Shown here in pieces: positions 1,445-2,623 of a stretch of 31,455 bases of DNA. Within the stretch, counting starts at the first letter, position 1; each line of letters starts with the position of its first letter. The notes under the pieces were generated by a model. The model searched no databases. It saw nothing but the letters and a program-made list of their open reading frames with translations, and was not told the origin of the DNA. The DNA comes from a virus. The DNA lies in the IMG/VR virus record IMGVR_UViG_3300037882_003155, positions 1-31,455 of that record; one strand, given 5' to 3'. Position numbers and translations under genes: made by a program.

Positions 1445-1456
1445 AAAGTGCAAAGT
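1445..1456 (+). repeat. Integrase arm-type site, left (P) arm
   Basis: The 12-mer AAAGTGCAAAGT lies about 24 bp left of the tRNA-like core. The same 12-mer appears twice in inverted orientation on the other side of the core. One site on one arm and two on the other is the usual build of a tyrosine-integrase attP. Confidence 0.75.
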
Positions 1457-1479
1457 ATGGCTGTTTTCTGCGGTTACGG

Positions 1480-1522
1480 CCTGATTACAAATCAGGTGCT
1501 CTACCAACTGAGCTAAGCCGGC
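1480..1522 (-). other. attP: attP core: 5' half of a tRNA-Thr(UGU) gene
   Basis: Read on the minus strand, these 43 nt form exactly the 5' half of a tRNA: 7-nt acceptor strand, UA, a complete D-arm (GCTC/GAGC) and a complete anticodon arm with loop TTTGTAA, anticodon TGT (Thr). After the anticodon stem the sequence leaves tRNA: there is no variable loop, T-arm or 3' acceptor strand, so this is not a working tRNA gene. The anticodon stem is a perfect 7+7 inverted repeat (CCTGATT-ACA-AATCAGG on plus, 1480-1496), a good fit for the core sites bound by the integrase, with strand exchange in the anticodon loop. The integrase gene ends 21 nt away. Confidence 0.85.
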
Positions 1523-1543
1523 CCTCTAATTTTACCTTCTAAA

Positions 1544-2623
1544 TCAGGGACTTGCTGGGAGCAAGAGGGCCTCTGATTTTGACTTTGCACTTTCCTCCAG
1601 AAGACTTTGCACTTTTGCCCGGGTCCTTCGCTTGGACATATACTGCTTGGCCATCTCGAACGTGCGATGGCCAACTATATCTTGGACCTCATACGGGGTG
1701 CAACCGATATCTTCCAACCGTGCGCAGGCCGCGTAGCGCAGCCCGTGGAAGGTGAGCCGGGGCAGGCCCAGCCGGAGCATCTCCTTGGCCAACATCCGGG
1801 AAAACGACTTGGGGTCTTCGAAGGGGTTGCCCTGCAGGCCGACGCAGAACGTCGTGGCTTCCGGGTGGGGTCTATCGGCCAGCGCCTGGGCTAGGTCGGG
1901 ATGTACCACAACCTCCACTAGCTCGTTGGTCTTACTCGTCCGAACACTAATAGTGCTACCCGTGAACCGGTTGCGCCTCATTAGGATCACATCGGACAAC
2001 CGCTGCCCGGTATGGACCCCCAGCAGGATCGGAATCCGAAAGACCGCCTTGCAATTAACAAGGAAGAACTCAATCTGATCCTCGGTCCACGGCTCGTGGC
2101 CTTTGACGTCGGCCTTGCGGTGGAGGGATTTCAATCCTTGGCACGGGTTGACCAATTGCTCGTCGTGCTGGTCTATTTTCCAAGTGAACACCGCCGAGAG
2201 CGCTGAGACCATATAGTCGGCCTTGCGCGGCGTGGAGGCTAGTGTCGCCCGTAGCTTGACGACGTGCCCCTTGTCGAGCTTGGGGTAGGGAAATACCCCA
2301 ATCTTATCCGAGACATAGGTCAGCAGCCGGGTGTATTCTTCTTGGGTCCGCTCAGCGAGCCGCTTGAACTCCGGAGATTTCTGATACCGATCGATGAGCC
2401 CGGCGAGGCTCTTCGGGAGATCCTTCGGTGGTTGGGGCTTGTTCTTCGCGGTCTCAACCGCAGCCAGTTTGTCGGCATAATCCCGATGGAACAACGGCTC
2501 CCCGGGAGACCCGCGGAGCCGTGATGTTCCTATCAACCGGTGCCGGAAATACCACCACCGGCCTTCCTGACAGAAGGTATACTTAGGCTTGGAGGAGCCT
2601 TTCGAATTCGCTGTCAGGACCAT
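1544..2623 (-). CDS. int: Tyrosine-family phage integrase
   Basis: A 359-residue site-specific recombinase that inserts and excises the phage at attP/attB. The catalytic set is complete: Arg208 (H-T-G-Q-R-L-S-D), a likely Lys231, His293 and Arg296 (H-G-L-R), His319 (V-G-H-R) and the nucleophile Tyr328. An N-terminal segment (about 1-60) and a core-binding domain (about 68-165) precede the catalytic domain, the usual two-site DNA-binding design. It is transcribed toward attP and its 3' end contains two arm sites. The start overlaps the excisionase candidate by 41 nt. An ATG is used at 2623, but later starts cannot be excluded. Confidence 0.95.
   Translation of the reverse strand: MVLTANSKGSSKPKYTFCQEGRWWYFRHRLIGTSRLRGSPGEPLFHRDYADKLAAVETAKNKPQPPKDLPKSLAGLIDRYQKSPEFKRLAERTQEEYTRLLTYVSDKIGVFPYPKLDKGHVVKLRATLASTPRKADYMVSALSAVFTWKIDQHDEQLVNPCQGLKSLHRKADVKGHEPWTEDQIEFFLVNCKAVFRIPILLGVHTGQRLSDVILMRRNRFTGSTISVRTSKTNELVEVVVHPDLAQALADRPHPEATTFCVGLQGNPFEDPKSFSRMLAKEMLRLGLPRLTFHGLRYAACARLEDIGCTPYEVQDIVGHRTFEMAKQYMSKRRTRAKVQSLLEESAKSKSEALLLPASP
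1551..1565 (-). terminator. Short hairpin just before the integrase stop
   Basis: CTTGCT-CCC-AGCAAG on the minus strand is a perfect 6-bp stem with a 3-nt loop, 4-7 nt before the integrase stop codon. It lacks a long U run, so termination is uncertain. It may instead protect or set apart the int transcript from the tRNA-like core downstream. Confidence 0.35.
1582..1615 (+). repeat. Integrase arm-type sites, right (P') arm: two direct copies
   Basis: ACTTTGCACTTT occurs at 1582-1593 and again at 1604-1615, 22 bp apart (two helical turns). Both lie inside the last codons of the integrase gene. The two copies are read in different codon frames (Lys-Val-Gln-Ser in one, Ser-Ala-Lys-Ser in the other), so the repetition is kept at DNA level and not by protein repeat. 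They are inverted with respect to the left-arm copy. Confidence 0.78.

Follow-up and report, generated by a model that had tools for sequence, protein, structure and literature searches.

Genetic elements that integrate into tRNA genes mostly carry the 3' part of the gene. The Islander collection counts 3,919 islands, 3,760 with 3' versus 159 with 5' tDNA fragments (PMC4383910), so an earlier reading of the DNA described here, made from its letters alone (the sequence-only reading), was right to regard the 3' part as the rule. The phage Psul1, which carries the 3' part of tRNA-Trp, is an example (PMC6536676). Attachment sites centred on the anticodon are nevertheless a recognised class (PMC4383910). 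The pTN3-like archaeal integrases use the 5' half of a tRNA gene and leave the tRNA to be expressed from the integrase promoter, a mode seldom met in bacteria (PMC8371274). In tRNA-dependent lysogeny there is a common core of about 10 bp, and the tRNA is not rebuilt (PMC10865867). Insertion through the 5' half is rare but already known, and the phage studied here very probably belongs to this mode.

The DNA analysed (the window) is the whole stretch of 31,455 nucleotides of the IMG/VR record IMGVR_UViG_3300037882_003155, a 31.5-kb linear virus fragment that represents only part of a genome and starts with GAGGCA repeats in tandem (1-28). The window genes resemble those of siphophages of about 80 kb, namely Caulobacter phage Seuss, Achromobacter phage JWF and Xylophilus phage Lumi, and the DNA polymerase is 36-42% identical to its counterparts in phages of this type. 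Late genes, including those of the holin and the endolysin, occupy the plus strand and end at 1411. The replication genes are on the minus strand, with the integrase gene (int) at the junction with the late genes and the tRNA half between the two gene blocks (Table 1). Seuss, Lumi, JWF and EAb13 lack the integrase domain PF00589, and KB12-38 has it only close to the end of the record. Searches of viral contigs with RIIA and the DNA polymerase as baits returned no relatives. With its integrase and possible excisionase (1544-2849), the window phage could be temperate, in a Seuss/JWF-like group otherwise devoid of integrases. Its integrase kin and tRNA matches point to sphingomonads as the likely host.

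Table 1. Features of the attachment region and its neighbourhood (window coordinates)
Feature	Position	Strand	Remarks
Endolysin	911..1411	+	phrog_7, E 3.7e-44; 3' end overlaps P' arm
Second P'-arm site, ACTGCAAAGT, direct	1391..1401	-	+123; inside endolysin coding end
CAATGGCTTA element, candidate accessory-protein site	1409..1418	-	+105; CAATGRCTTA equivalent in three relatives
P'-arm site, inverted copy of AAAGTGCAAAGT	1445..1456	+	+67 from tRNA nt 1, opposite side of core
nt 1-43 of tRNA-Thr(UGU), putative attP common core	1480..1522	-	exact match; likely crossover region, judged from relatives, is the anticodon loop TTTGTAA (1485-1491)
Spacer from int stop to tRNA start, 21 nt	1523..1543	-	contains TAAAAT box (1529-1534), 6 nt ahead of tRNA start
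Tyrosine integrase, 359 aa	1544..2623	-	PF00589, 1.7e-9; phrog_1, 6e-31; alignments
P-arm site 2, direct repeat (22 nt from site 1)	1582..1593	-	inside int coding end
P-arm site 1, AAAGTGCAAAGT	1604..1615	-	inside int coding end; layout as in relatives
Small protein, possible excisionase	2583..2849	-	phrog_66, E 0.00095 (weak match)

The sequence-only reading had claimed that the phage carries exactly nucleotides 1-43 of the tRNA and nothing of its 3' half, and this is borne out. The minus-strand sequence GCCGGCTTAGCTCAGTTGGTAGAGCACCTGATTTGTAATCAGG (1522-1480) occurs once in the window and is identical to the start of complete alphaproteobacterial tRNA-Thr(UGU) genes, covering the acceptor 5' strand, the D arm and the whole anticodon arm. 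No such match is expected in 100 shuffles, even if three mismatches are allowed. Identity ends after nt 43, where the phage has CCGTAACC and host tRNAs have GGG(T/C)C; no 3' half follows the core, and ARAGORN found no tRNA in the window. The distance of 21 nt from the integrase stop to the tRNA-like start (1523-1543) was also read correctly. The RNA folding of the region is no better than that of shuffles (z -0.61).

Rfam reports a tRNA match at 1395-1522 with a score barely over the threshold. We considered a split or intron-bearing tRNA and rejected it: the alignment bridges the 5' half by a long insert to a segment without a matching acceptor 3' strand. The match arises artefactually from the 5' half and could lead annotators astray.

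A search of host-lineage genomes for matching tRNA-Thr(UGU) genes, proposed with the sequence-only reading, was successful: the same 43 nt are present in 78 of 398 sampled Sphingomonadales genomes, one copy in each. The next base in these 398 genomes is always G, and thus, being single in each genome, the copies look like unoccupied single-copy sites. A single gene encodes tRNA-Thr(UGU) in Sinorhizobium meliloti as well (PMC11476347). Five viral contigs carry the 43 nt, all inside complete tRNA-Thr(UGU) genes and none as halves. Neither displaced 5' fragments of tRNA-Thr(UGU) in the 398 sampled genomes nor an exact attR-like junction of the window phage in genome contigs was found, and no lysogen at tRNA-Thr came to light.

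The attachment region is wider than first noted and spans 1391-1616. Three exact copies of AAAGTGCAAAGT (1604-1615, 1582-1593 and 1445-1456) flank the core. Judged by its sequence, the arrangement of the repeats is the layout of arm-type integrase sites. In integrated relatives, counted from tRNA nt 1, two direct arm repeats (spacing mostly 21-23 nt) start at about -96 or -75, inverted copies are located at +67/68, a further direct arm lies at +122 to +124 in most cases, and CAATGRCTTA is present at +103 to +106 in three. The window, with direct arms at -94/-72, the inverted arm at +67, CAATGGCTTA at +105 and a direct arm at +123, matches these positions almost base for base. The density of the arm motif in the P arms is 1.5 per 110 nt versus 0.05 in shuffles. 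The window integrase, in which the catalytic residues R208, H293, R296, H319 and Y328 are all present according to the alignments, is only about 31-39% identical to those of the relatives with a proven 5' mode. That the geometry is the same despite such divergence is the strongest single argument for the same mode of integration in the window phage. The arm sites at 1391-1411 and 1582-1615 overlap the coding ends of endolysin and int; given this overlap, the ends of both proteins may be doubly constrained.

Relatives of the integrase were sought in genome contigs, which gave 31 loci, nearly all from Sphingomonadales. At 20 distinct loci overall (19 tRNA-Cys and one tRNA-Leu) int is followed by a complete tRNA gene on the same strand. 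The nearest relative in the annotated collection, record MT837354, has int, 85 nt and then a complete tRNA-Cys in this order. The record is deposited as "Bacteriophage sp." from human faeces and has an in-frame stop within int; in the tree its integrase is that of Sphingomonas parapaucimobilis NBRC 15100, and it is probably chromosomal prophage DNA. The sequence-only reading had expected prophages with int immediately upstream of the tRNA. This is right for tRNA-Cys and tRNA-Leu, but no such prophage was found at tRNA-Thr. No tRNA adjoins the integrase relatives found on plasmids.

The fragment left behind by these elements is the 5' one. A search for tRNA-Cys in 17 genomes found a partial copy in 16, always from nt 1 to nt 38-41 and marking the far end of the element, with no 3' fragment among the copies listed. 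In 14 genomes the displaced fragment shares contig and strand with int and the complete tRNA; it lies upstream of int, mostly 2.4 to 61 kb off. In Novosphingobium sp. Leaf2, nt 1-42 of tRNA-Leu(UAA) are displaced by 37 kb. When 13 pairs of junctions were aligned, most shared blocks began at tRNA nt 1 or a few nt ahead of it, the exceptions being starts 20-22 nt upstream in two pairs and 58 nt in one likely tandem case. The block ends at nt 37-42 in 12 of the 13 pairs and is broken by a mismatch at nt 29 in the remaining one. One region (L065/L079, G004 C8:627883-687884) contains a complete tRNA-Cys and two 5' fragments, the nearer of them 163 bp away with 58 nt of common upstream sequence; a masked stretch lies in between, and the double fragments are likely tandem or remnant insertions. 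Five further Sphingomonas loci (L029, L034, L035, L036 and L044) have a tRNA-Cys 5' fragment in antisense orientation directly after int. This places int at the other end of the element: int and core have changed sides, but the half retained is still the 5' one.

More distant integrases from the same search are convergent with a tRNA gene (14 loci). At the one convergent locus checked as a control, tRNA-Lys leaves a 3' fragment (nt 30-76); by this one control, the convergent relatives are the ordinary 3' class. In the maximum-likelihood tree one branch of 31 rows (support 100/99) unites the window integrase with 17 of the 18 same-strand rows and contains no row of the convergent class. The same-strand row outside the branch (L097) also shows a displaced 5' fragment, hence the 5' mode is not restricted to one branch. 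The closest neighbours of the window integrase in the tree (L032, L040 and L098) have no tRNA beside int, a point against the 5' assignment of the window phage.

To judge from its sequence, the region 1391-1616 very probably serves a tyrosine integrase as attP, with the anticodon arm of the host tRNA-Thr(UGU) gene as its recombination partner. By analogy with the relatives, it is well supported that integration would proceed via this arm and would put phage DNA in place of all sequence ahead of the tRNA. The integrase would bind the arm-type repeats that flank the core, and the 7-nt anticodon loop would be the place of strand exchange. As nt 1-43 are part of attP, the gene would be rebuilt on the int side, in the order int, phage-derived 5' half, host 3' half, and the host 5' half together with the host promoter would be stranded at the opposite end of the prophage. 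The sequence-only reading had likewise placed attP on the 5' half and phage DNA upstream of the restored tRNA; the order of int and tRNA in the integrated relatives, their displaced 5' fragments and the arm geometry all support it.

The rebuilt tRNA would then be transcribed from phage DNA, either from a phage promoter or by read-through from int, the latter being described for archaeal pTN3-like elements (PMC8371274). It could be suggested, with the same attP, that a dedicated phage promoter mimicking the host tRNA promoter drives this expression in place of read-through. The relatives give this some ground. Of 19 related loci, 11 have TTGAC just upstream of the tRNA, at or near its native position and mostly between -37 and -49, versus 4% of shuffled sequences; it is mostly followed by a (G)CATTTGCGCG- or CAATTGCGCG-like sequence and often by GCATTTGCGCG. 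The native promoters beside the displaced fragments have TTGAC at -47 to -50 in most cases, and in two relatives the shared block reaches the 20-22 nt upstream of the tRNA mentioned above. Going by these motifs, roughly half of the related elements seem to bring along a promoter like that of the host. However, about eight relatives are also without the motif at that position, and in the window the 75 nt ahead of the tRNA start contain no TTGAC. A scan for sigma-70-like sites on the tRNA strand of the window gave no passing site. The promoter proposed in the sequence-only reading fares accordingly: the TAAAAT box (1534-1529) is indeed present 6 nt before tRNA nt 1, but it has no -35 partner and is too near nt 1 for a normal leader. 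As the transcript would start almost at nt 1, with almost no leader, the promoter role of the box is weak in the window phage. No terminator was recognised between int and the tRNA half in the window; with neither a clear promoter nor a clear terminator, read-through from int is as likely as a phage promoter. On the whole we regard a dedicated promoter of the mimicking kind as rather unlikely.

Two other explanations are far less probable. Under tRNA-dependent lysogeny, integration would break the host tRNA, whose place would be taken by a complete phage tRNA encoded elsewhere. The window is a partial genome and such a gene could sit outside it, but there is no tRNA in the window and the 43-nt core would fully rebuild the host gene, so we give this mechanism very little credence. 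It is equally hard to believe that the half is a degraded phage tRNA gene or a chance acquisition and not an attachment site: phages do carry tRNA genes and the Rfam score is slightly over the threshold, but the identity is perfect and ends exactly where the anticodon stem ends, and the flanking arm-type repeats occupy positions conserved in integrated relatives.

A broader proposal can be put forward tentatively. It is possible, although we would not call it probable, that integrases specialised on tRNA 5' halves make up a bacterial lineage which, upon integration, assumes control of the transcription of single-copy tRNA genes, often with a copy of the host promoter, so that an essential tRNA of the lysogen depends on element DNA. 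Deletion of the int-side end of the prophage would then cost the cell that tRNA. Most tRNA-using mobile elements leave the host promoter in place, and a lineage that replaces it offers a testable case of control over an essential host tRNA; relatives with and without a host-like promoter are natural promoter swaps for comparison, for instance Sphingomonas sp. Leaf10, whose element has such a promoter, and Novosphingobium sp. Leaf2, where none was seen. Related integrases can, moreover, differ in the tRNA half carried. The 5'-half match also provides a rule, based on sequence, by which the hosts and junctions of such phages can be predicted. In the open papers we found no description of a bacterial integrase branch devoted to 5' halves, with conserved att geometry and promoter copies.

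The window phage differs from tRNA-dependent lysogeny, which is characterised by a core of about 10 bp and a phage tRNA gene, in its 43-nt core and in the absence of a tRNA from its partial-genome window. The integrases of the Psul1/EBPR-podovirus type (PMC6536676) are distant kin of the window integrase and belong to the 3' class; unlike the window phage, their elements carry the 3' part of a tRNA gene that is oriented towards int. Archaeal pTN3 is similar in that its attP and attB have in common 41 bp of a tRNA 5' half including the anticodon, and in that the rebuilt tRNA is parted from its own promoter (PMC8371274, PMC5495485). Its host is archaeal, whereas that of the window phage is bacterial, and its integration disrupts its int. 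In the window phage the core (1480-1522) lies outside int (1544-2623), 21 nt away, with only arm sites overlapping the gene, and int thus stays whole. The sphingomonad tRNA-Cys/tRNA-Leu elements (L024-L053) share with the window phage integrase kinship, arm sites, P' geometry and use of the 5' half; they differ in targeting tRNA-Cys or tRNA-Leu instead of tRNA-Thr, and about half of them have a host-like promoter. The 5' islands of Islander likewise have the complete tRNA downstream of the element and the displaced 5' fragment upstream (PMC4383910). Those islands were counted without a link to an integrase group, whereas here the 5' mode goes together with a branch of bacterial integrases and a conserved att geometry.
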